Assembly: GCF_026967925.1 (NCBI RefSeq)
Contig: NZ_JAPVBI010000003.1
Location: 499,070 to 563,069 of the forward strand
Length of the DNA: 64,000 nt
Direction: 5' to 3'
DNA from: Modestobacter sp. VKM Ac-2985
GTDB lineage: Bacteria > Actinomycetota > Actinomycetes > Mycobacteriales > Geodermatophilaceae
Positions 15,498 to 38,018 of this stretch are shown one piece after another. The notes under the pieces are model-generated. The model had not been told where the DNA came from and did no database searches. It saw only the letters and a list, made by a program, of their open reading frames with translations. Each line of letters opens with the position of its first letter. Positions within the stretch are counted from its first letter, which is position 1. The translations under genes and the position numbers were made by a program.

Positions 15498-17558
15498 GTG
15501 ACCCTGACGCAGGCCCCGCAGCAGGCCGTCCCAGCTCCTGCCCGGCCGCCGCGACTGCCCGGCTGGGCAGCGGTGCCGGAGGTGCGCTGGGCCGCCGCGG
15601 CGCTGGCGTTCTTCCTCGCCGGGGGCCTGGTGCAGCTGCTGGACGGGCCGCAGCCCCTGGCCTGGGCGCTCTACCTCTGCTGCTACGCCACCGGTGGCTG
15701 GGAGCCGGCCTGGGCCGGGCTCACCGCGCTGCGCGAACGCACCCTGGACGTCGACCTGCTCATGGTGCTGGCCGCGATCGGCGCGCTCGCCCTGGGCCAG
15801 GTCTTCGACGGCGCGCTGCTCATCGTCATCTTCGCCACGTCCGGGGCGCTGGAGACGGTGGCCACCCGCCGCACCGCCGACGCCGTCCGCGGGCTCACCG
15901 ACCTCGCCCCCGAGCAGGCCACCGTGCTGGCCGGCGGGCAGGAGCGGGTGGTGCCCGCCGCTGACCTGGCCGTCGGCGACGTGGTGCTGGTCCGGCCGGG
16001 TGAACGGGTGCCGGCGGACGGGACCGTGCTCGACGGCGGCTCGGACGTCGACCAGGCCTCCATCACCGGCGAGCCGCTGCCGGTGGACAAGGCGCCCGGC
16101 GACGAGGTCTGGGCCGGGACGTCGAACGGCACGGGCGTGCTGACCGTGCGGGTCGACCGGCCGGCGGCCGAGGCGGTCGTCGCCCGGATCGCGGCCCTGG
16201 TCGAGGAGGCCAGCGCCACCAAGGCCGGCACGCAGCTGTTCATCGAGAAGGTGGAGCAGCGCTACTCGATGGGCGTGGTGGTCAGCACGCTGGCCGTGTT
16301 CGGCCTCCCCCAGCTGTTCGGGGAGCCGCTGCAGGAGGCGCTGCTGCGCGCGATGACCTTCATGATCGTCGCGTCGCCGTGTGCGGTGGTGCTGTCGACC
16401 ATGCCGCCGCTGCTCTCGGCGATCGCCAACGCCAGCCGGCACGGGGTGCTGATCCGCTCCGCCGTGGTGCTCGAGCAGCTGGGCGCCACCACGGTGGTGG
16501 CGCTGGACAAGACCGGCACCCTCACCGACGGCACGCCCGCGGTGGTCGCCGTCCGGCCGCTGCCGGGGACCACCGGCGACGAGCTGCTCGCCCTGGCCGC
16601 CGCCGCCGAGGGGCCCAGCGAGCACCCGATCGGCCGCGCGGTCGTCACCGCCGCCCGGGTCGCTGGGCTCTCGCCGGCCCCGGCCACCGACTTCCGGGCC
16701 GCCGTCGGGTCGGGGGTGCAGGCCACGGTCGAGGGGCGCGCGGTCAGCGTCGCCGCGCCGGCGCCCGGGCAGGAGGCGGTCGCCGAGCTGGTGGCGCAGG
16801 AGCAGGCGGCCGGCCGGACCGCCGTCGTCGTCAGCGTGGACGGCCGCCCGGCCGGCGTCCTCGCGCTCGCCGACCGGCTGCGCCCGGAGGCCGCCGATGC
16901 CGTCGCCGCGCTGCGCCGGCAGACCCGTGCGGAACCGGTGCTGCTCACCGGGGACAACGCCGGCGCCGCCCGCGCGCTGGCGATCCAGGCCGGGCTGGGC
17001 GACGTGCGGGCCGGCCTGCTGCCGGCGGACAAGGCCGCCGCGGTCAGCGAGCTGCAGCGGGCCGGGCACCGGGTCACGCTGATCGGCGACGGCGTCAACG
17101 ACGCCCCGGCCCTGGCCACCGCCGACGTCGGCGTGGCGATGGGCGGCATCGGGTCGGACCTGGCGCTGCAGAGCGCCGATGCCGTCGTCGTCCGGGACGA
17201 CCTGGCGGCGCTGCCCACGGTGATCGCGCTGGCCCGCCGGGCCCGCCGGCTGGTGGTGCAGAACCTGGTGATCGCCGGCACGGTGATCGTGGCCCTGGTG
17301 ACCTGGGACCTGATCGGCACGCTGCCGCTGGCGCTGGGCGTGGCCGGGCACGAGGGGTCGACCGTGCTGGTCGCGCTGAACGGGCTGCGACTGCTGCGCT
17401 CCTCGGCCTGGCGGACCGCCGCCCGCGAGGCCGCGCACGACCCCTCCGGCGGATCCCCCGCGGGTCAACGGCCGGTGCGGACCAGCCCGGCGGCGACCCC
17501 GAGCAGCACCAGCCCCGCCGCGGGCACCGCCACCAGCCAGGGCGCCCGCTCCAGGTAG
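15498..17558 (+). CDS. P1B-4-type metal-exporting ATPase (CtpD/CoaT-like)
   Basis: A 686-residue P-type ATPase without an N-terminal HMA domain. The membrane metal motif is SPC (MIVASPCAVVLSTMPP, near 293) rather than CPC, and the late helix carries HEGST (near 618). SPC plus HEG(G/S)T defines the P1B-4 subgroup, whose members export cobalt, ferrous iron, and in some cases zinc or nickel. DKTGT lies near 336 and the hinge is GDGVNDAPALATADVG. It is controlled by the divergent ArsR regulator. The 3' end overlaps the convergent permease gene by 94 bases. The last 40 or so residues are Ser/Pro/Ala-rich and may be a read-through tail. Confidence 0.88.
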   Translation: MTLTQAPQQAVPAPARPPRLPGWAAVPEVRWAAAALAFFLAGGLVQLLDGPQPLAWALYLCCYATGGWEPAWAGLTALRERTLDVDLLMVLAAIGALALGQVFDGALLIVIFATSGALETVATRRTADAVRGLTDLAPEQATVLAGGQERVVPAADLAVGDVVLVRPGERVPADGTVLDGGSDVDQASITGEPLPVDKAPGDEVWAGTSNGTGVLTVRVDRPAAEAVVARIAALVEEASATKAGTQLFIEKVEQRYSMGVVVSTLAVFGLPQLFGEPLQEALLRAMTFMIVASPCAVVLSTMPPLLSAIANASRHGVLIRSAVVLEQLGATTVVALDKTGTLTDGTPAVVAVRPLPGTTGDELLALAAAAEGPSEHPIGRAVVTAARVAGLSPAPATDFRAAVGSGVQATVEGRAVSVAAPAPGQEAVAELVAQEQAAGRTAVVVSVDGRPAGVLALADRLRPEAADAVAALRRQTRAEPVLLTGDNAGAARALAIQAGLGDVRAGLLPADKAAAVSELQRAGHRVTLIGDGVNDAPALATADVGVAMGGIGSDLALQSADAVVVRDDLAALPTVIALARRARRLVVQNLVIAGTVIVALVTWDLIGTLPLALGVAGHEGSTVLVALNGLRLLRSSAWRTAAREAAHDPSGGSPAGQRPVRTSPAATPSSTSPAAGTATSQGARSR

Positions 17559-19237
17559 CCCACCCCGTCGGCGAGGCTGCGCCCCCACTCCGGTGACTCC
17601 GCACCGGCCCCGAGGCCGAGGAAGGACAGCCCGGCCAGCGCCAGCGCGGTGTGCGGCACGCGCAGCAGGGCGTGCCGGCCGACCGGCGGCAGGACCGCCG
17701 GGAGCAGGTGGTGCCGCACCAGGTGCCCGCGACCTGCCCCGCTGGTGCGGGCCGCGAGGTGGAAGCCCGAGGCGCGCACCTCGGCGGCCAGGGTCCGGGT
17801 GTGCACTGCCAGCGGGATCCAGGCGACCAGGCTGACCGCGACGGCCGCGCCGACCAGGCTGGGCCCGGCGACGGCGGCGACCGCGATGCCCACCACCACC
17901 GCCGGCAGCGCGTTCAGCACGTCGGCCAGCCCGGCCCGCCCCCGGCCGAGCAGTCCGGCGGCGACGCCGGTGACCAGGACCACCGCGCTGATCAGCAGGG
18001 CCAGCCCCACCGAGGGCAGGGCACCGGCGCCGAACCGGGCGAGCACGTCGCGGCCGAGCGCGTCCGCGCCCAGCGGGTGTTCCCACGACGGCGCGGCGAG
18101 CCGGTCGCCGAGGTCCTGGGCGGTGGGGTCGCGCAGCACGCCGGCGAGGACCACCAGCGCCAGCACGGCGAGCAGCCCGGCCGCCCACCGGCCGGCGCGG
18201 GGCACCGGGGGCGGGAGCTCCGGCGACAGCCCGCCGTCGGAGCCCGCCGGCCCGAGCAGCGCCCGGTGCACCAGCACCCCGGCCCCGCCGGCCACCAGAC
18301 CGAGCAGCACCAGCAGCGCGACGGCAGCCTGCACGACCGGCAGGTCCTGGGCCAGCGCACCGGCCAGCGCGACCCGGCCGAGCCCGGGCACGTCGAACAC
18401 CGCCTCGATCACGGCGCCGGCCCCGAGCAGGCCGACCAGGAGCAGCAGCACCTGCGGGACGACGACGGTCAGCGCCCGCCGGGCCACCGCCCCCTGCACC
18501 GCCGAGCGGGAGACACCGGCCGCCCGCCAGCTGCGCACCCAGGCCTCCCCCGCGGTCTCCCGGACGGCGCCGGCCAGCACCCGCCCGAGCAGCCCGCCGG
18601 CCGGCAGCGCGAGGGCCAGGACGGGCAGCACGAGGTGTTCCGGTCCGGTGAACCCCGACGTCGGCAGCAGCCCCCAGCCCACGGCCACCACCGCGACCCC
18701 GACGACGGCCAGCACGAACTCCGGCAGCGCGGCGAGCGCGGCGGCGAGGACCCCGGCCGCACCGCCGCCGTCGGCGCGGCCGTCGGCGGCCCGGCGCACG
18801 ACGGGCAGCGCGAGGAGCACGGCGAGCACCACCGCCACCGCCGCGGCCGTCCCGGCGAGGGTCGCGGAGACACCCAGCGCCGGCGGGACGACCTCGCCGA
18901 CCGGCTGCCCGCTGACCCAGGAGGTGCCGAGGTCGCCGGTGACCGCGCGCCCGAGCCAGGACAGCGTCCCGCGGACCGGGTCGGCGGGGAGGTCCAGCTG
19001 CTCGCGCAGTGCGGCGAGGACGGCCGGGTCGGGCTCGCGTTCCACCTCCCGGGCCCGCAGCACGGTCCGCGCCGGGTCGTCCCCGGACAGCCAGGGCAGC
19101 GCCCCGACGAGGAGGCCGGCGCCGGCGACCGCGCCCAGTCCGGTCAGCACGGGGCGGAGCAGGTGCGACCGGAGCCGTCCGGGAGTGCGCCGCGGCCGGG
19201 CCGCCGACACCGGCCGCACCCGGCCGGCGGCGGTCAC
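17465..19237 (-). CDS. Opp/Nik-type ABC transporter permease, fused DppB-DppC (system A)
   Basis: A 590-residue membrane protein in which two permease subunits are joined. The first half (about 1-330) has DppB features (GDLGTSWVSGQPVGE, GLLPTSGFTGPEHLVLPVLAL, the FDVPGLGR turn). The second half (about 345-590) has DppC features (HPLGADALGRDVLARFGAGA, LGLGAGAESPEWG). About eleven or twelve hydrophobic segments are visible. It should form the channel for the lipoprotein encoded just upstream. GTG 19237 overlaps that gene's stop (GTGA). It is last in the six-gene operon A and overlaps the convergent P1B-4 ATPase gene. The domain pair is nearly the same size as the system B permease, so the two are probably paralogs. 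Confidence 0.88.
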   Translation of the reverse strand: MTAAGRVRPVSAARPRRTPGRLRSHLLRPVLTGLGAVAGAGLLVGALPWLSGDDPARTVLRAREVEREPDPAVLAALREQLDLPADPVRGTLSWLGRAVTGDLGTSWVSGQPVGEVVPPALGVSATLAGTAAAVAVVLAVLLALPVVRRAADGRADGGGAAGVLAAALAALPEFVLAVVGVAVVAVGWGLLPTSGFTGPEHLVLPVLALALPAGGLLGRVLAGAVRETAGEAWVRSWRAAGVSRSAVQGAVARRALTVVVPQVLLLLVGLLGAGAVIEAVFDVPGLGRVALAGALAQDLPVVQAAVALLVLLGLVAGGAGVLVHRALLGPAGSDGGLSPELPPPVPRAGRWAAGLLAVLALVVLAGVLRDPTAQDLGDRLAAPSWEHPLGADALGRDVLARFGAGALPSVGLALLISAVVLVTGVAAGLLGRGRAGLADVLNALPAVVVGIAVAAVAGPSLVGAAVAVSLVAWIPLAVHTRTLAAEVRASGFHLAARTSGAGRGHLVRHHLLPAVLPPVGRHALLRVPHTALALAGLSFLGLGAGAESPEWGRSLADGVGYLERAPWLVAVPAAGLVLLGVAAGLVRTGR

Positions 19238-20712
19238 CCCTCGACCGTCGTCTCGGTGCCGAGCAGCAGCCGGTCGAACGGGTCGACGACCAGACCGCTG
19301 ACCGACGGGGCGTACCCGGTGTGGGTGCGCTCGTGCAGCACCGGCAGCACGGCGCCGGTGGAGAGCACCTGCGCCTCGACCTGCAGCATCGCCGCCCGGC
19401 GCTCCTCGGGGTCGGCCCGGGTCGCGGCCGCGGCGACGGCGGCGTCCACCGCCGGGTCGCAGAGCCGGGCCAGGTTGTAGCTGCCCGCGCAGGTCAGGTC
19501 GGCGGCCAGGTAGCCGACCGGGTCGCCGGTGTCACCCAGGTACAGCCGGCTGGCGAGCACCGCGTCGTAGGCGCCGGCGAGCAGGTCGGTCTCCAGGGTG
19601 GCGTACTCGGCCACCACGACCTCCACCGTGAACCCGGCCTGCCGCAGCTGCTCGGCGAGCACCGCGGCCGCCTCGGGCAGCTCCGGCCGGTCGGAGTAGG
19701 TGGCCAGCCGGATGCTCGCACCGGCCGGGTCGGTGGCCGGGGGCAGGGTGACCGCCGGCCGGTCCAGGCCCCCGGCGGTGTCGTCGTCGACCAGCCCCTC
19801 GGCGACGTCGGCCCGGCCCTCGTACACGCCGTCCACCACCGGCTGCGGGTCGATCGCCGCGGCCACGGCCGCGCGCAGGCCCGGGTCGGCGAACGGCCCG
19901 TCCGCGGTGTCCAGGGAGAGGGAGACCAGCCGCGGCAGCGGGACGGAGAGCACCTCGGTGTCGGTGAGGGTCGGCAGCTGGGCGATGGGCAGGTTGACCG
20001 CCACGTCCAGCTCACCGGCCCGCAGCCCGGCGGTGCGCGCGGCTGCGTCGGCGGGGAAGGTGACGTCCACGCCCGCGAGCTCCGGCGCGCCCGCCCAGTG
20101 GTCGGCGTCCGCGGTCAGGGTGGCGCCCGACGTGCCGCGCAGCTCGGTCAGCTCGAACGGCCCGGTGCCGGTGCCCACCGGGTCCGGCGCCGCCGGGTCG
20201 GCGTAGGCCGCGGGGGCCAGGAGCACCAGCCCGGGGGCCGCCAGCCGGTGCACCAGCAGCGGGTCGGGCTCGGCCACCTGGACCTCGACCGTGTCCTCGT
20301 CCACCGCGCGGGCGGTGAGCCCCAGGCCGTCGATCGACCGGGGGGCCGGCACCGCAGCGGCCGCCGCCGCCAGGGCGCCGACGACCGCCTCGGCGTCCAG
20401 CGGCGTCCCGTCGTGGAACGGCACGTCCGCGCGGAGGTCGAGGGTCACGGTGCGGTCGTCGACCCGGCTCCAGCTCTCGGCCAGCAGCGGGGCGGGCTCC
20501 CCGGCCTCGTCCAGCCGCACCAGCGTCTCCCCCACGCCCATCCGGGTGAGCAGCACCGCGTCGTCGGAGAACGGCGAGAGCGCGGCGACCGGGGGGAAGG
20601 CCAGCGCCAGTGCCAGTCGCTGCCCGCCGTCGGCCGACTCCTCCGCAGCCGGGGCGAAGCAGCCGGCGAGCAGGAGGGGCAGGGCGAGCAGAGCACCTGC
20701 GGGGCGGGACAT
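19234..20712 (-). CDS. ABC transporter substrate-binding lipoprotein, SBP_bac_5 family (system A)
   Basis: A 492-residue exported lipoprotein with the lipobox LLAGC at residues about 17-21. Family features include ETLVRLDEAGEPAPLLAESW, VPFHDGTPLDAEAVV, GTGTGPFEL and YEGRADVAEGL. Peptides, nickel and metal-opine complexes are known ligands in this family. Near residue 420 it has TCAGSYNLARLCD, a Cys pair 11 residues apart that is also present in the system B protein (ACEGSFNIAQLCD); a disulfide or ligand contact is possible. An AGAAGAGG ribosome site precedes the ATG, and a 23-base gap follows the MFS gene. Confidence 0.88.
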   Translation of the reverse strand: MSRPAGALLALPLLLAGCFAPAAEESADGGQRLALALAFPPVAALSPFSDDAVLLTRMGVGETLVRLDEAGEPAPLLAESWSRVDDRTVTLDLRADVPFHDGTPLDAEAVVGALAAAAAAVPAPRSIDGLGLTARAVDEDTVEVQVAEPDPLLVHRLAAPGLVLLAPAAYADPAAPDPVGTGTGPFELTELRGTSGATLTADADHWAGAPELAGVDVTFPADAAARTAGLRAGELDVAVNLPIAQLPTLTDTEVLSVPLPRLVSLSLDTADGPFADPGLRAAVAAAIDPQPVVDGVYEGRADVAEGLVDDDTAGGLDRPAVTLPPATDPAGASIRLATYSDRPELPEAAAVLAEQLRQAGFTVEVVVAEYATLETDLLAGAYDAVLASRLYLGDTGDPVGYLAADLTCAGSYNLARLCDPAVDAAVAAAATRADPEERRAAMLQVEAQVLSTGAVLPVLHERTHTGYAPSVSGLVVDPFDRLLLGTETTVEG

Positions 20713-20735
20713 GGGCCCTCTTCTCGGTGGGTGGG

Positions 20736-22049
20736 TCACGGGTGCGCCGGTTCCTCGGCGGGGACGGCGGGCGCCGGTGGCCCCGCAGCCGGGGTGCGGG
20801 CGATCCGCCGGGTGAGCAGCGCGAGGCCGACGGCCGAGGCCGCCGGCAGCGCGGCGAGCACCAGCCACGGGACGGCGGCGGCCGGCTGCGGCCGGTCGGC
20901 GAGGTCGAGCAGCGCGCCCACCCCGGTGCTCCCGACCAGCACCGCGGCGCCCCCGGCGGAGGCGAGGAAGCCGAAGTGGGCGCCCAGCCGCCGTTCCCCG
21001 GCCAGCCGGGGCACCAGGTCCTGGGCGAGGGGCACGGCGACCATCTGGCCGGTGTAGAGCAGCAGCACCATGCCGACCGCCGGCGCCAGCGCCCAGATCC
21101 CGGCGGGCGGGGCGAGCGGGGCGCAGACCGCGACCAGCAGGAACGACGCGCTCATCAGCGCGAACCCGAACGGCAGCGCCCGCTGCACCCCGGCCCGCCG
21201 GGCGCGGGCGGTGACCCGCAGCTGGAACAGCAGCACCGACACCGCAGCCAGCACGAACAGCCAGCCCAGTGCCCCCTGGCCGCCGGTCGCCCGGGAGAGC
21301 TCGACGGGCAGCGCCAGGTAGAGCTGGTTGTAACTGAGCAGGTAGGTGCAGTAGCAGGCGGTGAAGGCCAGGAAGGTGCGGTTGCGCAGCACGTGCCCCC
21401 ACCCGGCGAGCACGCTCTCCTCACCACTGCCCTCGGTGCGCAGGTCGCGCGGCAGCCAGCGCAGGTGCGCGGCGAGCACGACGCCGAAGACGCCGGCGGA
21501 GACCCAGCAGGTGACGCTGAACGGCACGGTGAGCAGGACGGCGCCGAGCGCCGGCCCGGTGACCGAGCCGAGCTTGCTGGCGATGGCGTCCAGCCCGAAG
21601 ACCTCGGCCCGGGTGACGACGCCGGCGGCCTCCAGCCGGTGGCCCTGGTCGGCCAGCGCCGACTCCACCGCCGGGGAGAACAACGCCGCCGCGAAGCCGA
21701 CCAGCACCGTGCCGGCGAGCACCGCGGGCAACGAGGTGGCGACGGCGAGCACGCCGAACCCGGCGATCCGGATCAGGCAGCCGACCACGACGACGGGTTT
21801 GACGCCGAACCGGTCGGCCAGCCCGCCACCGAGGAAGAACAGCCCCTGCTGGCTGAAGGTGCGCACCCCGAGCACCAGGCCGACCAGCCCACCGGCCAGC
21901 GCCAGGTCCTCGGTCAGGTGCACCGCCAGGAACGGCACCACCAGGTAGAAGCCGATGTTGAACGCCAGCTGGGACAGCAGCAGCAGCCGGGGCACGGCCG
22001 GCAGCCGCCGGAACAGCACGAACGGCTCCCAGGTGACGAGCCCGGTCAT
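20736..22049 (-). CDS. MFS transporter within operon A
   Basis: A 437-residue major facilitator protein with about twelve membrane segments. The loop between helices 2 and 3 carries GGGLADRFGVKPVVVVG, the classic MFS motif A. The early segment LAFNIGFYLVVPFLAVHL resembles MdtH-like drug exporters. It is embedded between the ATPase and substrate-binding genes of an import system (ATGA overlap with the upstream ATPase), which is unusual. In opine-metallophore systems a comparable MFS protein (CntE) exports the chelator and the ABC system re-imports the metal complex. That analogy is inference. Confidence 0.85.
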   Translation of the reverse strand: MTGLVTWEPFVLFRRLPAVPRLLLLSQLAFNIGFYLVVPFLAVHLTEDLALAGGLVGLVLGVRTFSQQGLFFLGGGLADRFGVKPVVVVGCLIRIAGFGVLAVATSLPAVLAGTVLVGFAAALFSPAVESALADQGHRLEAAGVVTRAEVFGLDAIASKLGSVTGPALGAVLLTVPFSVTCWVSAGVFGVVLAAHLRWLPRDLRTEGSGEESVLAGWGHVLRNRTFLAFTACYCTYLLSYNQLYLALPVELSRATGGQGALGWLFVLAAVSVLLFQLRVTARARRAGVQRALPFGFALMSASFLLVAVCAPLAPPAGIWALAPAVGMVLLLYTGQMVAVPLAQDLVPRLAGERRLGAHFGFLASAGGAAVLVGSTGVGALLDLADRPQPAAAVPWLVLAALPAASAVGLALLTRRIARTPAAGPPAPAVPAEEPAHP

Positions 22050-22810
22050 GCCAGCACCAGCCGCGGGACGGCGGCCACCAGCGCGTGCGCCTCGCGGCTG
22101 GCCGGCTCGGTGAGCACGCGGGCCACCGGCCCGGCCTCCACCACCCGGCCGCCGGCCAGCACCACGACCTCGGAGCAGAGCGCGGCGACGACGCCCAGGT
22201 CGTGCGACACGACCAGCAGCGCGACGCCCTCGGCGTCGCTGACCGCCCGCAGCAGCTCCACCACCTGCAGCCGGACGGCGGCGTCCAGTGCGCTGACCGG
22301 CTCGTCGGCGATCAGCACCTCCGGGCGCGGGGCGAGCGCGCGGGCCAGCGCGATCCGCTGCCGCTGGCCGCCGGACAACTCGTGCGGCAGCCGGCCGGCG
22401 GCGTCGGGGTCCAGCCCGACGGCGAGCAGCAGCTCGGCGACGCGGGCCCGGTGGTCGCCGGGCACGTGCAGGCAGCGCAGCGGCTCGGCGACGGCCTGGC
22501 CGACGCGCATCCGCGGGTTGAGCGAGCGGCCGGGGTCCTGGGGCACCACCTGCACGGCGCGGCGGAACCAGTGCAGCGCACTCGGCCGGCCCGGCTGCAC
22601 CGGCCGGCCGCGGTAGGTGACCTCCCCGGCGTCGGGCCGCTCGAGCCCGAGCAGCAGCCGGGTGAGGGTCGACTTGCCGGCGCCGGACTCCCCCACCACC
22701 GCCAGCCGCTGACCCGCGGTCAGGCGGAGGTCGACCCCGTCGAGCGCCGGCGCGGCGGCTCCCCGGTACGACCGGGTCAGCCCGCGGGCGAGCAGCAGCT
22801 CGGCGCTCAC
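22046..22810 (-). CDS. ABC transporter ATP-binding protein, DppF-like (system A)
   Basis: A 254-residue ATPase. Walker A is GESGAGKSTL, the Q-loop lies in VPQDPGRSLNPRM, the signature is LSGGQRQRIALARALA, Walker B is VLIADEPVSALD, and the switch His is in VVSHDLGV. HWFRRAVQVVPQDP and the RYRG-type opening fit the second ATPase of Opp/Dpp systems. GTG start overlapping the stop of the preceding ATPase. It powers the fused permease together with the DppD-like subunit. Confidence 0.9.
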   Translation of the reverse strand: MSAELLLARGLTRSYRGAAAPALDGVDLRLTAGQRLAVVGESGAGKSTLTRLLLGLERPDAGEVTYRGRPVQPGRPSALHWFRRAVQVVPQDPGRSLNPRMRVGQAVAEPLRCLHVPGDHRARVAELLLAVGLDPDAAGRLPHELSGGQRQRIALARALAPRPEVLIADEPVSALDAAVRLQVVELLRAVSDAEGVALLVVSHDLGVVAALCSEVVVLAGGRVVEAGPVARVLTEPASREAHALVAAVPRLVLA

Positions 22811-23604
22811 CGGGCCCCCACCAGGGCCGGCGGGCTCAGTGCGGCGGTGGCCTCGACCAGCGCGCGCACCGCGGGGTGCGCGTGCCCGGCCAGCACCTCG
22901 CGCAGCGGCCCGTCGGCGAGCAGCTCGCCCTCCTCCAGCACCAGCACCCGGTCGCAGGTGGTGGCCGCGGCAGCGAGGTCGTGGGTGACCAGCAGCAGCC
23001 CCGCGCCGCGCTCGCGGGTGGCCCGGCCGAGCACGGCGAGCACGCCGTGCTGCGCGGTCGCGTCCAGCGCGGAGGTCGGCTCGTCGGCGACCAGCAGCTG
23101 CGGGCCGGCGGCCAGGGCCAGGGCGAGTGCGGCCCGTTGCCGCTGCCCGCCCGACAGCTGGACCGGGAAGCGCCGTGCGCTGCCGACCGGCAGCCGCATC
23201 TCGGCCAGCAGCTCGGCGGCCCGGGCGGCAGCCACCCGTCGTCGCGCCCCCGCCCGGCGCAGCGGCGCGGCGACCTGCCGCCCCACCCGGACCTGCGGGT
23301 TCAACGACGTGCCCGGGTCCTGCGGCACCAGCGCGGTGACCGGGCCACGCAGCGGCCGGAGGTCCCGTTCCGCGGCCCCCACCACCTCGGTGCCGTCGAC
23401 CCGGACGCTGCCGGTGACGACGGCGTCCGGCGGCAGGAGCCCGAGCAGCGCCAGGGTGGTCAGCGTCTTGCCCGAGCCGGAGGCGCCGACGAGGGCGACC
23501 CGCTCGCCGGCAGCGAGGTCGAAGGAGACCCCGGCGACGGCCGGGTGCCCGCCGAACCCGACGGTGAGCTCCCGGACGCGCAGGAGAGGTGGGACGTCGT
23601 TCAC
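22807..23604 (-). CDS. ABC transporter ATP-binding protein, DppD-like (system A)
   Basis: A 265-residue ATPase with Walker A GASGSGKTLT, Q-loop VPQDPGTSLNPQV, signature LSGGQRQRAALALALA, Walker B LLVADEPTSALD and His in VTHDLA. The SGSGKTLT-type Walker A and ERDLRPLRG fit the DppD/OppD-like subunit. The start is GTG 23604, whose GTGA overlaps the stop of the dioxygenase gene, so the two are translationally coupled. Confidence 0.9.
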   Translation of the reverse strand: MNDVPPLLRVRELTVGFGGHPAVAGVSFDLAAGERVALVGASGSGKTLTTLALLGLLPPDAVVTGSVRVDGTEVVGAAERDLRPLRGPVTALVPQDPGTSLNPQVRVGRQVAAPLRRAGARRRVAAARAAELLAEMRLPVGSARRFPVQLSGGQRQRAALALALAAGPQLLVADEPTSALDATAQHGVLAVLGRATRERGAGLLLVTHDLAAAATTCDRVLVLEEGELLADGPLREVLAGHAHPAVRALVEATAALSPPALVGAR

Positions 23605-24497: not shown

Positions 24498-24565
24498 TTG
24501 CAACCCGTTCGCAGCAATGCGACCGGCCCGGGACGGGCGGCTGACGAGTGCACTGCCCCGCCGGG

Positions 24566-24590
24566 TAGATTGCCGACAATGGTTATCAGT
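24566..24590 (+). promoter_or_regulatory. System B promoter with candidate Zur box
   Basis: TAGATT (24566-24571) ends seven bases before ATG 24579, a leaderless arrangement. CGACAATGGTTATCA (24574-24588) overlaps the start codon. It matches the znuA box in the GACAA--TT-TCA positions and keeps GA-AA/TT-TC symmetry. Confidence 0.6.
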
Positions 24591-26218: not shown

Positions 26219-26225
26219 CCCGCGC

Positions 26226-26260
26226 CCCACCCCACCCCACCGCACCGCACCGCACCGCAC
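26226..26260 (+). repeat. Pentanucleotide tandem repeat in the leader of the system B lipoprotein gene
   Basis: Three copies of CCCAC are followed by four of CGCAC (35 bases), between the ATPase stop and the ATG at 26278. The tract lies upstream of a weak CGGAA-type ribosome site. Length changes would alter the leader but not the reading frame. Confidence 0.8.
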
Positions 26261-26277
26261 CCACAGAGAACGGAACG

Positions 26278-27789: not shown

Positions 27790-27792
27790 GCC

Positions 27793-29583: not shown

Positions 29584-29615
29584 CCGCGGCCCCGTCCTGC
29601 GCCCTCGTGGGTTTT

Positions 29616-29644
29616 TTGACAACGATTCTCATTACACGGATGAT
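29616..29644 (+). promoter_or_regulatory. znuA promoter with best Zur box
   Basis: TTGACA (29616-29621) as -35 is followed after 17 bases by GATGAT. The sequence TGACAACGATTCTCATT (29617-29633) overlaps the -35 and closely resembles actinobacterial Zur boxes of the TGAAAATGATTTTCA type. It stands out as AT-rich against the surrounding GC. Confidence 0.78.
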
Positions 29645-29650
29645 CGGGCC

Positions 29651-30634: not shown

Positions 30635-31335
30635 GCACCCGGCCCCGCCGGGCGCCGGCCGCCGTCCCGGTCGCCTGCGACAGCGCGCTGACGGTGCGGG
30701 GCGGCGCTTTCGGTCACGGCCGGGACGCCGCGATCACCGGCGTCGACCTGGCCGTGCGCCCCGGAGAGGTGGTCGCGGTCCGCGGGCCCAACGGGGCCGG
30801 CAAGTCGACGCTGGTCCGCGGTGTGCTGGGTCTGTGCGAGGTGCAGGCCGGCGAGGTGCGGCTGTTCGACGTGCCGCGCGCGCGGTTCCGGGACTGGCAC
30901 CGGGTCGGCTACGTCCCCCAGCGGCACACCGTGGCCGGCAGCGTCCCGGTGACCGTGCGCGAGCTGGTCTCCTCCGGCCGGCTGGGCCGGCTGCGGGCCT
31001 GGCAGCGCTTCGGCGAGGCCGACCGGTGTGCCGTCGACTGCGCGCTGGAGAGCGCCGGGCTGGCCGGCTTCGACCGCCGGCTGCTCGCCGAGCTCTCCGG
31101 CGGCCAGCAGCGCCGGGCGCTGCTGGCCCGCGCGCTGGCCGGGGACCCGGAGCTGCTGCTGCTGGACGAGCCGACGGCGGGGGTCGACGCGGCCAGCCAG
31201 CGGGTGGTCGCCGGCACGCTGGCCGGGCTGGCCGCGACCGGCGCCGCCGTGGTCGTGGTGCTGCACGAGCCGGGCCCGCTGGCGGACGTGGTGACCAGGA
31301 CGGTGACGCTGCCGGGGGCCGGCGCCCGGTGCTGA
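30625..31335 (+). CDS. znuC: Zinc ABC transporter ATP-binding protein ZnuC
   Basis: A 236-residue ATPase with Walker A GPNGAGKSTL, Q-loop VGYVPQRH, signature LSGGQQRRALLARALA, Walker B LLLLDEPTAGVD and switch His in VVVLHEPG. The VPQR and DWHRVGYVPQR pattern fits zinc/manganese importers. The GTG start lies inside the end of znuA, and the stop overlaps the start of znuB, so the three genes are translationally coupled. Confidence 0.92.
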   Translation: MLLSTRPRRAPAAVPVACDSALTVRGGAFGHGRDAAITGVDLAVRPGEVVAVRGPNGAGKSTLVRGVLGLCEVQAGEVRLFDVPRARFRDWHRVGYVPQRHTVAGSVPVTVRELVSSGRLGRLRAWQRFGEADRCAVDCALESAGLAGFDRRLLAELSGGQQRRALLARALAGDPELLLLDEPTAGVDAASQRVVAGTLAGLAATGAAVVVVLHEPGPLADVVTRTVTLPGAGARC

Positions 31336-32207
31336 GCTACGAGTTCATGCGGCTGGCCCTCGCGGCCGCCCTGCTCGTCGGCCTCACCGCACCCACCGTC
31401 GGGGTCTACCTGGTGCAGCGCCGGCTGTCGCTGATCGGCGACGGCCTGGGGCACGTGGCGCTGCTGGGGGTGGCGGTCGGCCTGGTCACCCGGTCCGCGC
31501 CGGTGCTCACCGCGCTGCTGGCCACGGTGGCCGGTGCGGTGGCGGTGGAGGTGCTGCGCGCCCGCCGGTCGGCCAGCGCCGACGTCGCGCTGGCCATCAT
31601 GTTCTACGGCGGGCTGGCCGGTGGCGTCGTCGTGGTCACCCGGGCGCCGGCCGGCACCCCGATCACGCTGGACAGCTACCTGTTCGGCGCGCTCACCACC
31701 ACGACCCGGGGCGACCTGGTGCTCTTCGCCGTGATGGCCGTCGTCGTGCTGGCGGTGACGATCGGGCTGGGCCGGTCGCTGTTCACCGTCGCGCTGGACG
31801 AGGAGCACGCCCGGGCCAGCGGGCTGCCCGTGCTGGGGCTGAACCTGCTGCTGGCCGTGGTCACCGCAGTCACCGTGACGCTGTCCATGCGGGTGCTCGG
31901 CCTGCTGCTGATCAGCGGGCTGATGGTGCTGCCCGCCGGCTGCGCGCAGCTGGTGGCCCGCAGCTTCCGGAGCAGCCTGGTGATCGCCGCGCTGATCGGG
32001 GTCACCGTGTCCGTCGGCGGCACCGCGGTCTCCTTCTACGCCGACACCCCGTCGGGCGGGACCATCGTGCTGATGGCGGTCGCCGCCTACGCCGTGCTCA
32101 GCATCGCCCGGATGGCCCGCCGCGGCAGCCCCCGGTCCGGGCCGGACGTCGTCCCGGCCCCGGTGCGGCCCGTGGGCCGGCCGGGCGGGGTGCCCCTCCC
32201 CCGCTGA
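31329..32207 (+). CDS. znuB: Zinc ABC transporter permease ZnuB
   Basis: A 292-residue membrane protein of the ABC-3 family with about eight or nine hydrophobic segments. Family segments include LVQRRLSLIGDGLGHVALLG, LDSYLFGAL, ALDEEHARASGLPV and GLLLISGLMVLPA. GTG 31329 overlaps the znuC stop. The soluble C-terminal tail is Pro/Arg-rich. A strong hairpin follows immediately after the stop. Confidence 0.93.
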   Translation: MLSYEFMRLALAAALLVGLTAPTVGVYLVQRRLSLIGDGLGHVALLGVAVGLVTRSAPVLTALLATVAGAVAVEVLRARRSASADVALAIMFYGGLAGGVVVVTRAPAGTPITLDSYLFGALTTTTRGDLVLFAVMAVVVLAVTIGLGRSLFTVALDEEHARASGLPVLGLNLLLAVVTAVTVTLSMRVLGLLLISGLMVLPAGCAQLVARSFRSSLVIAALIGVTVSVGGTAVSFYADTPSGGTIVLMAVAAYAVLSIARMARRGSPRSGPDVVPAPVRPVGRPGGVPLPR

Positions 32208-32241
32208 CCGGCGGCGCCCGGTCGGTCCCGGGCGCCGCCGG
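32208..32241. terminator. Hairpin terminator between znuB and the methyltransferase gene
   Basis: A 14-bp perfect stem (CCGGCGGCGCCCGG and its complement) with the loop TCGGTC, starting at the base after the znuB stop. The convergent operon C ends five bases beyond it, so it can serve both. Confidence 0.8.
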
Positions 32242-32245
32242 CAGG

Positions 32246-33049
32246 TCAGCGGACGGCCAGCAGCACCCGGTCGTCGTGGTCCTGCCAGATGGTGCCCACC
32301 TCGGAGAAGCCACCCTCCAGCAACGCCGCCTCGTGCATGCGCACCCCGGTCAGCCGGGTGCCGGGCGCGTGGTCGTCCGGGCCGCGCTCGGCGGCGTTGC
32401 GCCGCTCCCGCTCGGCGACGGCCTCGGTCAGCTCGGGCGCGGACAGCGCGGCGGCCCACCAGGCGTCCCAGTCCGGGACGCCGTCGGCGCCGAACGCCTG
32501 CTCGGCCCGGCGTCGCTCCGCCGCCTCGGACAGCCGGCTCAGCAGGACCTGGCCCGGGTCGTACGCCATGTTGTCCGCGTTGGCCAGCACGCCGCCGGCA
32601 GGCAGCAGCGTGGCGACCCGGCGGTAGGTGGCGGCGAGCTGGGCGGCGGACAGCCAGTGCAGTGCGGTGGAGCTGACCACGGCGTCCACTGCGGTCACCG
32701 GCAGCCGCTGCGGCCACGCCGGGTCGCGGAGGTCGGCGTCGACCCACTGCAGCCGCCCGTCGGCGTCACCCAGCGCGGCGGCGCCGACGGCGACCAGCAC
32801 CGGGTCCATGTCCACGGCGACCACGCGCGCGGCCGGGAAGCGCTCCAGGGCCCGGGCGCCGAAGGAACCGGGGCCGCAGGCCAGGTCGAGCACCGTGCCA
32901 CCGGCGGCGAGCCGGTCCCCGACCAGCTCCTCGAGCGCGTCCAGGGCGGCGGTGAACCGTTCCTCGCGGTGGCGCAGGTAGCCGCTCTGCTGGCGGTCCC
33001 AGTTGTGCAGCAACCGGCGCCAGTCGGTGGTGGTGAGCTGATCGGTCAC
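32246..33049 (-). CDS. Class I SAM-dependent methyltransferase at the end of operon C
   Basis: A 267-residue Rossmann-fold methyltransferase with motif I VLDLACGPGSFG (near 54-65), the acidic residue in VVAVDMDPVLV and motif IV-like AVVSSTALHWL. The substrate is not determinable; trans-aconitate-type and small-molecule methylases share this plan. GTG 33049 overlaps the stop of the transporter fusion gene (GTGA), so it is coupled to metal or peptide import system C. Methylation of a transported ligand or chelator is a possible role. Confidence 0.85.
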   Translation of the reverse strand: MTDQLTTTDWRRLLHNWDRQQSGYLRHREERFTAALDALEELVGDRLAAGGTVLDLACGPGSFGARALERFPAARVVAVDMDPVLVAVGAAALGDADGRLQWVDADLRDPAWPQRLPVTAVDAVVSSTALHWLSAAQLAATYRRVATLLPAGGVLANADNMAYDPGQVLLSRLSEAAERRRAEQAFGADGVPDWDAWWAAALSAPELTEAVAERERRNAAERGPDDHAPGTRLTGVRMHEAALLEGGFSEVGTIWQDHDDRVLLAVR

Positions 33050-35502
33050 GGGTGGATCTCCTCCACAAGTGGGGGTGCTGCGACGTCCCGGCCGGGGCGC
33101 GCAGGGTCAGGGGTGGGGCGTCCGGGGGGTCCCGGGCGCCGCCGCGCCAGGACGGCGGGCGTGGCGCCCCGGTCGACGACCGCGCCGTGGTGCAGCACGA
33201 GCAGCTCGTCGGTGAGCGCGGCGACGGCGGCCAGGTCGTGGGAGATGACGACCAGGGCGACGCCCTCGGCCCGCACGGACCGCAGCAGCTCGAGCACCCC
33301 GGCGCGGACGACGGCGTCCAGCGAGCTGACCGGTTCGTCCAGGACGATCAGGTCCGGCGCCGCGGCCAGGGCGCGGGCGATCACCACCCGTTGCTGCTGG
33401 CCCCCGGACAGCTGCCAGGGCCGGCGGCCGGCGAGCTCCGGGTCCAGCCCGACCCGGGTGAGCAGCGCCGGGGGGCCACCGAGGGGCACCGGGCGGCCGC
33501 GCCGACGGGCCAGCAGGAGGGCCTCGCGCAGCGCCGCGCCGACCGGCTGACGCAGGTCGAGTGCGGAGGCCGGGTCCTGGAACACCAGCTGGGCGTGCCC
33601 GGTGCCCGCTGCCCGGGTCGACCCGGCGAGCTCGACGGTGCCCGCGGTCGGGCACTGCAGCCCGGTGAGCACCCGGGCGAGGGTGGTCTTGCCACTGCCG
33701 GACTCCCCCACCACGCCCAGTCCGCCGCCGCGCGGCAGCGTGAACGACACCCCCGTCAGCGCGGGCGGGAGCGCCGACCGGCTCCACCGCCCGGCCGGGT
33801 ACCTCACCCCGACGTCCCGGGCCAGGAGCAGCGGTGCACCCCCGGGAGGTGGTGCCGGGGCAGCGGCCGGTTCCACGGCGGCGTCGCGCAACGCCCCGGT
33901 CACCGGGTGCGCAGGTGCGTCGAGCACCTGGGCCACCGGCCCGGACTCCACCACCTGCCCGGCGTCCAGGACGGTGACGGTGTCCGCGTGCCGGCCCACC
34001 AGTCCGAGGTCGTGGCTGATCAGCAGCACAGCGGTGCCGTGCTCGTCGCGGGCCCGGGCCAGCAGCGCCAGCACCTGCCCGGCGGTGGCGGCGTCCAGCG
34101 CGCTGGTGGGTTCGTCGGCGACGAGCAGCTGCGGCCCGCCCGCGAGCGCCGCGGCGACCAGCACCCGCTGCCGCATGCCGCCGGAGAGCTCGGCGGGCCG
34201 GGCGCGCAGGACCCGGTCCACGTCGGGCAGACCGGCCCAGACCAGCAGCTCCCGGGCCACCGCGGTGGCCGCCCGCCGATCGAGCCCGCGGTGCAGCCGA
34301 GCGGCCTCGGCGACCTGGGGTCCGATCCGGCGCAGCGGGTCCAGCGCGGTGCCGACGTCCTGGGGCACCAGCGCCACCCGTGCGCCGCGCACCCGGCGCA
34401 GGTCGCGCTCGGTCGCACCGACCAGCTCCTGCCCGGCCAGCCGCACCGAGCCACCGGCGACCGCGCCGGCCGCCTCCGGCAGCAGGCCCAGGACGGCGGC
34501 GGCGGTCAGCGACTTGCCGGAGCCGCTGCCGCCCACGAGCGCGACCACCTCGCCCCGGCCGACATCGAGGTCCACGCCGTCGACCACCCGGCGGCGCTCG
34601 TGCGGCCCGGCCAGCTCCACGGTCAGCCCCCGCACCGACAGCAGCGCCTCGGTGGGACGCCCGGCGGGCGCGGGGCGGGCGCGGTGTCCAGGCGCGCGCA
34701 CGGCCGGGCGGCCGTGCGTGGTCCACGCCTGCGCCTGCCTGGCCAGCACGAGCACGAGCAGGACCAGCAACGCGAGCGCCAGCATCGGCAGCAGGAACAG
34801 CCGCGGGTCGGTGGCCAGGTGGGGGCGGGCCTCGACGATCATCGCCCCCCACTCCGGGGTCGGCGGGCGCACGCCCAGCCCGAGGAAGCTCAGCGTCGAG
34901 ACGCCGAGCACCAGACCGGCGACGTCCGTGCCGGCCAGCACCAGCACCGGCCCGGCGACCGCCGGCAACAGGTGGACGCCCAGCACCCGGCCGGGTCGGG
35001 CACCCAGCAGGGTCAGCGCCTGGACGACCGGGGCACGCCGGCGCAGCAGCACCTCCATCCGCACCAGCCGGGCGTAGGACGCCCAGCTGCCGGCGGCCAG
35101 CGCCAGCACCAGCCCGCCGGCACCGCCGCCGAGGACGCCGGCGAGCACCACCCCGACCAGCAGCGCCGGCACCGCGACGACGACGTCGCTGGTCCGCAGC
35201 ACCAGCGAGTCCACCCAGCCGCCGCGCCACCCCGCGAGCAGCCCCAGCGCCAGGCCGAGGGGCAGCGCGATCGCCACGGTCAGCAGCACGATGCCGAGCG
35301 AGGTCCGGCCGGCGACCAGCAACCGGGTCAGCTCGTCGCGGCCCAGGTGGTCGGTGCCCAGCAAGTGCGCGGCCGAGGGGCCGGCCCGGACGGCGGTGAG
35401 GTCGGTGGCGGTCGGTGACCAGGGGCTGAGCAGCGGCCCGGCCAGCACGGCGAGCACCAGCAGCCCGAGCAGCCCGAGAGCGGCGCGTGCCGTCACGGTC
35501 AC
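33046..35502 (-). CDS. Triple fusion: Opp/Nik-type permease plus two ATP-binding domains (system C)
   Basis: An 818-residue polypeptide. Residues about 1-260 are a DppC/NikC-like permease (LLGTDHLGRDELTRLLVAGR, LGLGVRPPTPEWG). About 286-540 form a DppD-like ATPase (Walker A GGSGSGKSLT, signature LSGGMRQRVLVAAALA, Walker B LVADEPTSALD). About 560-800 form a DppF-like ATPase (Walker A GESGSGKTTL, signature LSGGQQQRVVIARALA, Walker B IVLDEPVSSLD). All catalytic motifs look intact. The reading frame is continuous, with no stop between domains. GTG 35502 overlaps the stop of the separate DppB-like permease. Linking one permease to both ATPases fixes subunit stoichiometry. Confidence 0.88.
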   Translation of the reverse strand: MTVTARAALGLLGLLVLAVLAGPLLSPWSPTATDLTAVRAGPSAAHLLGTDHLGRDELTRLLVAGRTSLGIVLLTVAIALPLGLALGLLAGWRGGWVDSLVLRTSDVVVAVPALLVGVVLAGVLGGGAGGLVLALAAGSWASYARLVRMEVLLRRRAPVVQALTLLGARPGRVLGVHLLPAVAGPVLVLAGTDVAGLVLGVSTLSFLGLGVRPPTPEWGAMIVEARPHLATDPRLFLLPMLALALLVLLVLVLARQAQAWTTHGRPAVRAPGHRARPAPAGRPTEALLSVRGLTVELAGPHERRRVVDGVDLDVGRGEVVALVGGSGSGKSLTAAAVLGLLPEAAGAVAGGSVRLAGQELVGATERDLRRVRGARVALVPQDVGTALDPLRRIGPQVAEAARLHRGLDRRAATAVARELLVWAGLPDVDRVLRARPAELSGGMRQRVLVAAALAGGPQLLVADEPTSALDAATAGQVLALLARARDEHGTAVLLISHDLGLVGRHADTVTVLDAGQVVESGPVAQVLDAPAHPVTGALRDAAVEPAAAPAPPPGGAPLLLARDVGVRYPAGRWSRSALPPALTGVSFTLPRGGGLGVVGESGSGKTTLARVLTGLQCPTAGTVELAGSTRAAGTGHAQLVFQDPASALDLRQPVGAALREALLLARRRGRPVPLGGPPALLTRVGLDPELAGRRPWQLSGGQQQRVVIARALAAAPDLIVLDEPVSSLDAVVRAGVLELLRSVRAEGVALVVISHDLAAVAALTDELLVLHHGAVVDRGATPAVLARRRPGPPGRPTPDPARPGRDVAAPPLVEEIHP

Positions 35503-36455
35503 GTGCGCACCCCGGCCCGGGCGTCGACGAGCGCCGCCAGCGAACCGGCCAGGCCGCGGACGGAGACGGTGCCGACGGCGATGATCAGCACCGCCGCCTG
35601 CAGCGGGTACCAGTCGCGGAACTGCAGCGCCCGCACCAGGTAGTCGCCCAGTCCCGGCCAGCCGAACGCCGTCTCGGCGACCAGGGTGGCGGCCAGCGCG
35701 GTGCCCACGACGTCGCCGATCACCACCAGCAGCGGCGCGGCCGCGTTCGGCAGGGCGGTGGCCAGCAGCACCCGGGCCGGGGACAGCCCGCGCGCCCGGG
35801 CGGTGGTGGCGAAGGGCTCGCGCAGCGTGCTGCGCAGCCGGGCCTCGGTGACCTGGGCGAGGACGGCGGCCAGCGGCAGCCCGATGACCGCGGCCGGCAG
35901 CACCAGGGAGGGCCAGCCGGCGATGCCCTGGGTGGGCAGCAGCCGCCACTGCAGGGCGAACAGCAGCACACCGAGCTGGGCGAGGGCGAAGGCCGGCACC
36001 GACAGCAGGGCGAGCGAGCCGAGCTGGATCGGCAGCCGGACCACCCGGCGCCGGGTCAGCGCGGCCACGGCACCGGCGGTCAGGCCGCCCACCACGGCGA
36101 CGACCGCGCCGGTCGTGGCGAGGGTGACCGTCGGCCCGAGCCGGGCGGCCACCTCACCGGCGACGTCCTGACCGGTGCGCGCCGAGGCACCGAGCTCGCC
36201 CCGGAACAGCCCTTCGAGCGCGTGCAGGTAGCGGACCGGCGCCGGGAGGTCCAGGCCGAGCTCGGCCCGCACCCGGGCCACCGCCTCGGCGGAGACCACC
36301 CCGTCGCGGGCGAGGACGATCGCGGTGGCGGCGTCCCCGGCGGCCACGGACAGCAGCCCGAAGGTCAGCAGCGACACGACGAGCAGGACGGCGACGCCCT
36401 CCCCGGCGCGACGGCCGGCCGCCCGGCCGGCCGCCGCGACCCAGGAGCCCCGCAC
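35499..36455 (-). CDS. Opp/Nik-type ABC transporter permease, DppB/NikB-like (system C)
   Basis: A 318-residue membrane protein with about six helices. DppB-type features are VRAELGLDLPAPVRYL, RGELGASARTGQDV, WRLLPTQGIAGWPSLVLP and AETAFGWPGLGDYLVRALQFRD-type loops. GTG start three bases after the lipoprotein stop. It should pair with the permease domain of the downstream triple-fusion protein. Confidence 0.88.
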   Translation of the reverse strand: MRGSWVAAAGRAAGRRAGEGVAVLLVVSLLTFGLLSVAAGDAATAIVLARDGVVSAEAVARVRAELGLDLPAPVRYLHALEGLFRGELGASARTGQDVAGEVAARLGPTVTLATTGAVVAVVGGLTAGAVAALTRRRVVRLPIQLGSLALLSVPAFALAQLGVLLFALQWRLLPTQGIAGWPSLVLPAAVIGLPLAAVLAQVTEARLRSTLREPFATTARARGLSPARVLLATALPNAAAPLLVVIGDVVGTALAATLVAETAFGWPGLGDYLVRALQFRDWYPLQAAVLIIAVGTVSVRGLAGSLAALVDARAGVRT

Positions 36456-36458
36456 CGG

Positions 36459-38018
36459 TCAGCCGGAGACGGTGACGTCGCTCAGCGGCAGGTCGTACTC
36501 GGTCGCCCCGAGCTCGAACCCCTCGACGGTGTCGCGGATCGCCCACTGCCGCGGCAGCTGCACCAGCGGCACCGCCGCGGTCTGCTCCTCCAGCGTCGTC
36601 CAGGTCGCGTCGAAGGCGGCCTGGCGGCTCTCCTCGTCCGGCGCGGCCAGCGCCGCCGGGATCTGCGCGTCGAGCTCGGGCGAGGCGAACAGGTGCCCCT
36701 CCTGCACGCTGCGGAAGTTGGCCGTCAGCGTGCTGTACGGGTCGTAGGGCGCCCCGTAGGTGTTGTAGAAGCGCAGGTCGAAGTCCCGGGCGGAGACGGT
36801 GGTGCCGTAGGCGGTGCTGTCCAGCGGGGTGATCGTCACCTCGAAGCCCACGTCGCCCAGCTGGTCGGCGACGGCCTGGCTCAGCGACGTCGCCTGGGGC
36901 AGCAGCCCGGGGTCGAGGACGAGGTCCAGCTCCAGCGGGACGCCGTCCTTGCTGCGCACGCCGTCCCCGGTCCACCCGGCCTGCTCCAGCAGCTCCTCGG
37001 CGGCGGCCGGGTCGGCGGCGGTGGCGGCCTCGGGGTCGGGTCCGTAGGGCACGTTGGCCGGGAAGACGGTCGTGGCCGCCGTGGCACGCCCCTCGAACAG
37101 GCCCTCGGCGATGCCCGGGCGGTCCACCGCCAGGTCCATCACCCGCCGGACCGCCGGGTCGGCGAGCGCCGGGTTGCCCGTGTCGGCGTTGACGGTGAGC
37201 AGCAGGTTGGTCGTGGACTCGGTCGTGAGCACCTCGATCCCGTCGGCCTGCTCCAGCGCTGCGGCCTCCTCCAGCGCGAGGGGGGCGGTGTACTCCCCGC
37301 CGATCACGTCGACCTCGCCGGCCTGCAGCGCGGCCACCCGGGCGGCGGCGTCCGGGATGACGGCGAACTCGACCCGGTCGAGCGAGGGGGTGCCGCCCCA
37401 CCAGTCGTCGTTGCGCACGAGCACGATCTGCTGCTCGTCCAGCGACTCGACCCGGTACGGCCCGGTGCCCACCGGCTCGCCCGCGGCCTCCGGGCTGGTG
37501 AAGCGCACCGGCCGGGTGAGGGCCAGCTCGTTGAGGGCGGAGTGGTACGGCTGGCTGAGCCGCCAGGTGATCGTCGCCTCGTCGGTGGCCTCGATCGACT
37601 CGGTGACCCCGGTCAGCCCGAGGAAGCTGTTGTCCGGGTCCTCGACCCAGCGCAGCAGGTCGGTGCGGGCCACCTCGGCGTCGAACGGCGTGCCGTCGGT
37701 GAAGGTGACGCCCTCGCGGAGGGCGAAGGTCATGGTCAGGCCGTCCGGGCTGACCTCGAAGGACTCGGCCAGCGCCGGGGCGAAGGACCCGTCGGCGGTG
37801 TAGCGCACCAGCGGCTCGAAGACCTGGTCCAGCACGGTGAAGGAGGAGGTCGTGTAGTCCTGCACGGAGAGCGAGGCCTCCGGATCGGCCAGCGCGATCC
37901 GGAGCACCTGCTCGCCCGGTGTGTCGGCGGCGGCGCCGTCGTCGGACAGGCCGCACGCGGACAGCGCGAGCACCAGTGCCCCGGCGGCGAGGGTGACCAG
38001 GGGGCGGGACGCGGACAT
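36459..38018 (-). CDS. NikA-like ABC transporter substrate-binding lipoprotein (system C)
   Basis: A 519-residue exported lipoprotein (lipobox LSAC near residue 22) of the SBP_bac_5 family. Segments VFEPLVRYTADGSFAPALAE, VTFTDGTPFDAEVARTD and VGTGPYRV are standard. RFYNTYGAPYDPYSTL matches the (W/Y)GAPYDP motif that I associate with NikA and CntA-type binders of nickel-histidine or metal-opine complexes. Systems A and B lack it. Metal-chelate import is therefore the best guess. The ATG follows AGAAGG. The gene lies 68 bases below the 44-residue Cys-rich gene and in line with the ribosomal protein genes, so it may be read from the same Zur-type promoter. Confidence 0.88.
   Translation of the reverse strand: MSASRPLVTLAAGALVLALSACGLSDDGAAADTPGEQVLRIALADPEASLSVQDYTTSSFTVLDQVFEPLVRYTADGSFAPALAESFEVSPDGLTMTFALREGVTFTDGTPFDAEVARTDLLRWVEDPDNSFLGLTGVTESIEATDEATITWRLSQPYHSALNELALTRPVRFTSPEAAGEPVGTGPYRVESLDEQQIVLVRNDDWWGGTPSLDRVEFAVIPDAAARVAALQAGEVDVIGGEYTAPLALEEAAALEQADGIEVLTTESTTNLLLTVNADTGNPALADPAVRRVMDLAVDRPGIAEGLFEGRATAATTVFPANVPYGPDPEAATAADPAAAEELLEQAGWTGDGVRSKDGVPLELDLVLDPGLLPQATSLSQAVADQLGDVGFEVTITPLDSTAYGTTVSARDFDLRFYNTYGAPYDPYSTLTANFRSVQEGHLFASPELDAQIPAALAAPDEESRQAAFDATWTTLEEQTAAVPLVQLPRQWAIRDTVEGFELGATEYDLPLSDVTVSG

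Follow-up and report, generated by a model that had tools for sequence, protein, structure and literature searches.

An oxygenase family recurring beside metal-chelate-type importers, and its setting in a zinc-homeostasis island of Modestobacter

Few zinc metallophores are known. In actinobacterial clusters for opine zincophores, either FecCD importers or both importer types (FecCD and Opp) have been reported (PMC7438024), and in Mycobacterium smegmatis a zinc-starvation-induced island (MSMEG_6045-6071) belongs to the Zur regulon (PMC7174638). Here we analyze a zinc-homeostasis island of Modestobacter sp. VKM Ac-2985 (genome of 4.72 Mb), which occupies about 10.2-40.6 kb of the window, that is, of the whole stretch of 64,000 nucleotides under study (contig NZ_JAPVBI010000003.1, positions 499,070 to 563,069). 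Three Opp/Nik-type importer operons, hereafter A, B and C, sit inside the island, exactly where a first-pass annotation of the sequence had placed them. Like the M. smegmatis island, the window holds znuABC, a CobW-like GTPase, an extra ATP-binding cassette (ABC) system, an S-adenosylmethionine (SAM) methyltransferase, a P-type ATPase and alternative ribosomal proteins; unlike the window, that island is not credited with a TauD-type oxygenase or an Opp/Nik-type importer in the portion of its description available to us (PMC7174638). The region is best explained as a zinc-starvation island that has gained two accessory modules, one made up of the divergent operons A and B and the other of operon C.

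The new part of the finding is that the oxygenase encoded by operon A belongs to a family that recurs with metal-chelate-type importers. Operon A lies on the minus strand (17465-24413), and, given the proposed starts, its neighbouring genes overlap by 4 bases at each junction, the start of the substrate-binding protein (SBP) being uncertain. The genes, in order, are as follows, MFS denoting the major facilitator superfamily and GBBH gamma-butyrobetaine hydroxylase:

23601..24413, minus strand: gene 1, TauD/GBBH-type Fe(II)/2-oxoglutarate oxygenase, TTG start proposed (PF02668, E = 5.5e-20)
22807..23604, minus strand: ABC ATPase 1 (PF00005, E = 6e-24)
22046..22810, minus strand: ABC ATPase 2 (PF00005, E = 1.2e-33)
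20736..22049, minus strand: MFS transporter (PF07690, E = 5.8e-31; nearest NCBIfam model MdtH, 139.9 bits, cut-off 469)
19234..20739, minus strand: SBP_bac_5 lipoprotein, start uncertain (PF00496, E = 2.4e-52)
17465..19237, minus strand: double permease with NikB-like and NikC-like halves (PF00528, two stretches)

The oxygenase belongs to the TauD/TfdA superfamily (PF02668, 72.8 bits against a cut-off of 27) and has the HxD...H ligands; the iron ligands H92, D94 and H248 are kept in 53 of the 53 aligned rows of its family, and its fold is predicted with a pLDDT (predicted local distance difference test) of 91. The closest matches among named genomes were four loci with 93-97% identity, all from Modestobacter, and the gene is present in 7 of 23 genomes of that genus, its own included.

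We surveyed the family at 80 loci in other actinobacteria and in Modestobacter. The stretches covered were at most 10 kb and some contigs ended near the TauD gene, and absences are therefore local only. Fec-type importer genes were found at 37 loci and Opp-type genes at 25, while neither was matched at 18. The TauD gene has an Opp-type neighbourhood together with an MFS gene in Modestobacter, and it does so at 18 of 19 Pseudonocardia loci. Elsewhere (Streptomyces, Lentzea, Saccharothrix and others), TauD mostly follows a different MFS gene and stands beside FecB/FecCD genes. SbnA-like and DUF364 genes accompanied 26 of the 37 Fec-type loci and none of the 25 Opp-type loci, a split that fits producer and scavenger versions of the system. 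Structural and genome-context evidence has connected DUF364 with the synthesis of siderophores and the chelation of metals (PMC2954201).

A quick tree was built from 53 of the 81 available proteins; it carried a long-branch warning and left the deep Opp-type part unresolved. In it, the Fec-type rows formed one branch (support 99) that also held the Opp-type locus L058 and the importer-less L064. The importer class thus labelled switches at least twice between Fec and Opp, and the oxygenase stays with metal-chelate-type importers despite this change, which supports the reading given below. L058, from Streptomyces, is an apparent importer swap, its Fec-branch TauD having an Opp/Nik-type importer as neighbour.

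Zur boxes were scored against the core TGaNAANNNTTNtCA of the actinobacterial Zur motif, a computational motif quoted in PMC5472717, whose own chromatin immunoprecipitation motif is looser. In the Fec branch, the 650-base promoter segment before MFS-TauD contained such a box at 23 of 30 loci with at most 1 mismatch and at 28 of 30 with at most 2, compared with 6 and 31, respectively, of 813 control segments from the same loci. These 30 of the 80 loci are those with a Fec-branch MFS gene on the same strand as TauD, matched at locus positions 7500-9600; related loci among them are not independent. Because FecBCD importers, MFS and a Zur box accompany the Fec branch, mostly along with SbnA-like and DUF364 genes, a metal-chelate role for the oxygenase family is supported. 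A candidate metallophore biosynthesis cluster, mostly Zur-boxed, was also seen at L055, L056, L066, L067, L069, L071, L072, L079, L080, L095 and other loci; it combines an SbnA-like pyridoxal-phosphate enzyme, DUF364, a GHMP kinase, a methyltransferase, MFS, TauD and FecBCD. The cluster at L069 has no Zur box at up to 2 mismatches. We found no description of a TauD-MFS-Zur module in the open-access literature of the one library searched, and one may exist elsewhere.

On this basis we propose a mechanism to which we give about an even chance of being correct: the three importers take up foreign metal chelates, the oxygenase of operon A oxidises the chelator and the MFS protein clears the product. 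Operons A, B and C, being of the Opp/Nik class, would probably import metal bound to a small foreign chelator, and in the case of operon A the imported complex would meet the cytosolic Fe(II)/2-oxoglutarate oxygenase. Oxidation would lower the affinity of the chelator and release the metal, or would begin the breakdown of the chelator, and the spent product would then be removed by the MFS protein. The metal would be zinc, perhaps nickel for operon A, and the ligand may be a zincophore. The SBPs of all three operons and the permeases of operon A have nickel-importer models as their best or near-best matches, in agreement with the metal-type families claimed in the first-pass annotation.

Operon B lies on the plus strand (24579-29583), divergent from operon A, and is a paralogue of its importer part (the two ATPases are 48% and 59% identical to their counterparts) without an oxygenase or MFS gene. 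ZnuABC (29651-32207), which the first-pass annotation omitted from its proposal, stands between operons B and C. The two sets of genes are:

24579..25397, plus strand: operon B, ABC ATPase 1 (PF00005, E = 5.5e-24)
25394..26218, plus strand: operon B, ABC ATPase 2 (PF00005, E = 3.2e-33)
26278..27789, plus strand: operon B, SBP_bac_5 lipoprotein, 47% identical to the SBP of A (PF00496, E = 1.3e-55)
27793..29583, plus strand: operon B, double permease, 46% identical to the permease of A (PF00528)
29651..30634, plus strand: ZnuA-type zinc-binding lipoprotein (PF01297, E = 1.3e-74)
30625..31335, plus strand: ZnuC/AztA-type ATPase (AztA, 173.8 bits, cut-off 220)
31329..32207, plus strand: ZnuB/AztB-type permease (PF00950, E = 1.5e-58)

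We searched the genome for Zur boxes and found matches with at most 1 mismatch at five places, compared with one for the control, and three of the five lie in the window:

10658..10672, plus strand: Zur box TGAGAACTGTTGTCG upstream of zur, 1 mismatch
24574..24588, plus strand: Zur box CGACAATGGTTATCA at the A/B junction, 1 mismatch, covering the predicted start codon of operon B
29617..29631, plus strand: perfect Zur box TGACAACGATTCTCA before znuA, 0 mismatches

At up to 2 mismatches, the window contained 4 matches where 0.86 were expected, a number equalled in 2 of 100 shuffles; a match at 13960, inside a P-type ATPase gene, is probably due to chance. The box at the A/B junction bears out the Zur-box-like promoter that had been suggested for operon B, and boxes at the same place are present in other Modestobacter loci, the copy in L035 having 2 mismatches. 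No Zur box was found before operon C or the ribosomal genes at up to 2 mismatches in the window; L035 and L143 have boxes with 1 mismatch in the interval that separates the ribosomal genes from the CobW-like gene. Far from the island, a perfect Zur box precedes an ArsR/SmtB-like gene (G000:C1:1373124-1373138, L125), and a Zur site has been predicted upstream of M. smegmatis smtB (PMC7174638).

The island has further members that point to zinc, namely Zur, ribosomal-protein paralogues and a GTPase of the MRF family, besides two heavy-metal P-type ATPases and an ArsR/SmtB regulator:

10169..10579, minus strand: Zur, Fur family (best solved relatives 3mwm, E = 1.4e-49, and 2o03, M. tuberculosis-type FurB, E = 1.4e-44)
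38291..39252, minus strand: S18, S14, L33 and L28 paralogues
39337..40629, plus strand: COG0523/CobW-like GTPase, family MRF (NF047431, 521.7 bits, cut-off 375)

The entry 3mwm is Zur of Streptomyces coelicolor. S18, S14 and L33 contain no cysteine and L28 contains one. Together with ZnuABC, these genes support the zinc setting that had been claimed for the three importers, and the zinc link of the region and of operon B is well supported. Beside zur, a DUF1980 protein and an ArsP_1 permease are encoded at 10693-12491, separated from it by the Zur box at 10658. The MRF-scoring GTPase adjoins the ribosomal paralogues; MRF is said to recruit a ribosome hibernation factor.

Operon C occupies 32246-38018 on the minus strand:

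36459..38018, minus strand: NikA-like SBP lipoprotein (TIGR02294, 303 bits, cut-off 393)
35499..36455, minus strand: permease (PF00528, E = 6.9e-19)
33046..35502, minus strand: fused permease-ATPase-ATPase (scores with the NikD, NikE and YejF models)
32246..33049, minus strand: class I SAM methyltransferase (PF13649, E = 1.5e-14)

The fused ATPases come nearest to the cut-off with NikD (318.1 of 318.7 bits) and NikE (321.9 of 332.6 bits). The SBP of operon C was found in 4 of the 23 Modestobacter genomes, its own included (E of 1e-100 or better). In each of the four carriers the operon is co-oriented with S18 and located downstream of it, the spacer measuring about 50 bases in L143 and some 270-390 bases in the other three. 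It adjoins ZnuABC in the window, L142 and L143, and in L141 ZnuB is about 4 kb further away (from the contig positions of L034 and L141). Operon C is an accessory module of the zinc island. It was missing from the fetched stretches of three other operon-A-bearing Modestobacter genomes (L021, L023 and L025). Because the TauD gene (7 genomes) and the SBP of operon C (4 genomes) occur together in only 2 of the 23, the three operons do not necessarily form a single system. The single zincophore system of the first-pass annotation stands only in part: relatives of TauD do occur in Zur-boxed, metallophore-like clusters, but A and C occur independently in the genus.

Several observations weigh against the proposed uptake and oxidation of foreign metal chelates. 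The nearest solved relatives of the oxygenase, GBBH and TmpA, both act on trimethylammonium compounds according to their entry titles; peptides and opines are also among the ligands of SBP_bac_5 importers; and the top model for the ATPases of operon C is the microcin C protein YejF (356.9 bits, cut-off 834), spanning both ATPase domains. The TauD gene was not found in 16 of the 23 Modestobacter genomes, some of which are incomplete. The A/B Zur box lies on the start of operon B and precedes the TauD start by 175 bases; it is therefore direct evidence for B, whereas A is linked to it by position only; promoter boxes are found for B, znuABC and zur. In Pseudonocardia, whose members are the next Opp-type relatives, no Zur box at 1 mismatch was found in the 19 loci or in the tested promoters (L040 has one with 2 mismatches). 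The counts of tested promoters miss L057, L093, L096 and other loci, in which the gene caller, trained on GC-rich codons, called no genes. In Pseudonocardia a different repeat, ATGC-N8-GCAC followed by TTGAC within 25 bases, precedes the SBP gene at 13 of 17 loci. This combination occurs nowhere else, on either strand, in the 331 kb of these 17 loci (the intergenic SBP/MFS alignment leaves out L051 and L054 of the 19). Finally, the promoter of operon A itself contains a conserved Nur-like, that is, nickel-type, box:

24498..24514, minus strand: Nur-like box CTGCGAACGGGTTGCAA in the operon A promoter, conserved in five other Modestobacter loci

The Pseudonocardia repeat was found in the MFS/SBP intergenic regions of L038, L041-L050, L052 and L053. 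In the SBP-OppB-OppC-TauD operon of this genus (L036-L050, L052-L054), no ATPase gene was matched inside, and the importer may share its ATPase from elsewhere.

The best-surviving rival explanation, although we consider it unlikely, is that operon A handles nickel chelates and answers to Nur, with B, C and ZnuABC devoted to zinc and controlled by Zur. The boxes of the window, L031 and L032 agree with 10 of the 12 positions of the published Nur consensus tTGCaa-N5-ttGCAA (PMC3919588), those of L033, L034 and L035 with 11, and shuffling each of the six promoters 500 times never gave an equal score. Five of the six loci are close relatives; the informative one is L035, in which the box is retained despite diverged flanks. 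The genome also encodes a nickel superoxide dismutase (Ni-SOD) and a Fur-family protein whose best match is 3eyy, S. coelicolor Nur (E = 5.2e-30; next 3.9e-11), and the Pseudonocardia repeat has TGC...GCA half-sites as well, one base closer together. However, the Nur-box pattern was no commoner genome-wide than its control (10 versus 9, and 7 versus 8 in a second count), the 3.4 kb surrounding the Ni-SOD gene contained no match at up to 3 mismatches, and, of the six other matches in the genome, the four whose flanks were judged by eye from predicted protein starts showed nothing clearly nickel-related. Because these counts gave no regulon and the flanks no support, nickel control is kept as a rival; the Zur boxes before MFS-TauD in the Fec branch likewise argue against it.

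It is quite improbable that the importers are ordinary nutrient transporters, for peptides, opines or quaternary amines, that lie in the zinc island by chance, with TauD degrading the nutrient. The breadth of ligands carried by these importer families and the closeness of the oxygenase to GBBH and TmpA would agree with this, but neither the Zur boxes of the A/B junction and the Fec branch nor the constant neighbourhood of operon C would.

The alternative raised in the first-pass annotation, namely a small chelator synthesised by the cell itself through the oxygenase and methyltransferase and exported by the MFS protein, appears distinctly improbable. MFS and TauD are indeed paired at many loci, and some Fec-type loci have a methyltransferase beside the SbnA-like and DUF364 genes. 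On the other hand, no backbone-forming enzyme was found in the genome (neither a condensation domain nor DUF364; CntL and other synthases were not searched for), SbnA-like or DUF364 neighbours are lacking at all 25 Opp-type loci within the stretches covered, and A and C are distributed independently. The accompanying statement that no opine synthase, nicotianamine-like synthase or nonribosomal peptide synthetase is present held for the condensation domain; the opine dehydrogenase CntM (PF10100) also gave no match in the genome, but the control genomes gave none either.

Some enzymes and ribosomal proteins of Zur regulons are zinc-sparing. That TauD is a stand-in enzyme of this type, unrelated to the chelate imported beside it, is scarcely credible, since although Zur regulons do include enzymes and ribosomal proteins beyond uptake (PMC6103462), TauD is persistently paired with importer and MFS genes over two branches.

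Returning to the oxidation of imported chelates, a broader scenario is possible but doubtful, in which actinobacteria share a two-branch metallophore economy of producers and scavengers with a common chelator-opening oxygenase, and control in Modestobacter is split between zinc (B) and nickel (A). The producer branch (Streptomyces, Lentzea, Saccharothrix and others) would, under Zur control, make a chelator by means of an SbnA-like enzyme and DUF364, sometimes with a GHMP kinase and a methyltransferase, and MFS and FecBCD would move it. The scavenger branch (Modestobacter and Pseudonocardia) would import such chelates through Opp-type transporters. In both, the oxygenase would open the chelator and free the metal, as an oxidative counterpart to siderophore reduction or hydrolysis. 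An oxygenase that recurs with metal-chelate-type importers in several actinobacterial families, in most cases with a Zur box, would offer a handle for finding new chelators and a new way of freeing metal.

Among described systems, coelibactin and [S,S]-ethylenediaminedisuccinate ([S,S]-EDDS), both actinomycete metallophores, share with our proposal the control of a chelator system by Zur (PMC6103462, PMC9252823); as a point of difference, no condensation domain was found in the window genome. The Cnt-type systems (staphylopine, pseudopaline and bacillopaline) have an Opp- or FecCD-type importer and, in some cases, an MFS exporter (PMC7438024). The likeness to Cnt drawn in the first-pass annotation holds for architecture, but no SBP reaches the CntA cut-off (A 66, B 41 and C 221 bits, cut-off 800), and membership of operon A in the Cnt systems was rejected because these scores are far too low; the window further differs in having an oxygenase, and no synthase was found (no search for CntL was made). 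Operon C resembles NikABCDE in that its SBP scores highest with the NikA model and its ATPases fall just under the NikD and NikE cut-offs. It differs in remaining below the curated cut-offs, in its zinc setting, in the fused permease-ATPase-ATPase and in the methyltransferase. The oxygenase of operon A shares its fold and the HxD...H iron site with GBBH, TmpA and the TauD oxygenases; it is 16-22% identical to the top structures and sits in a metal-uptake neighbourhood instead.

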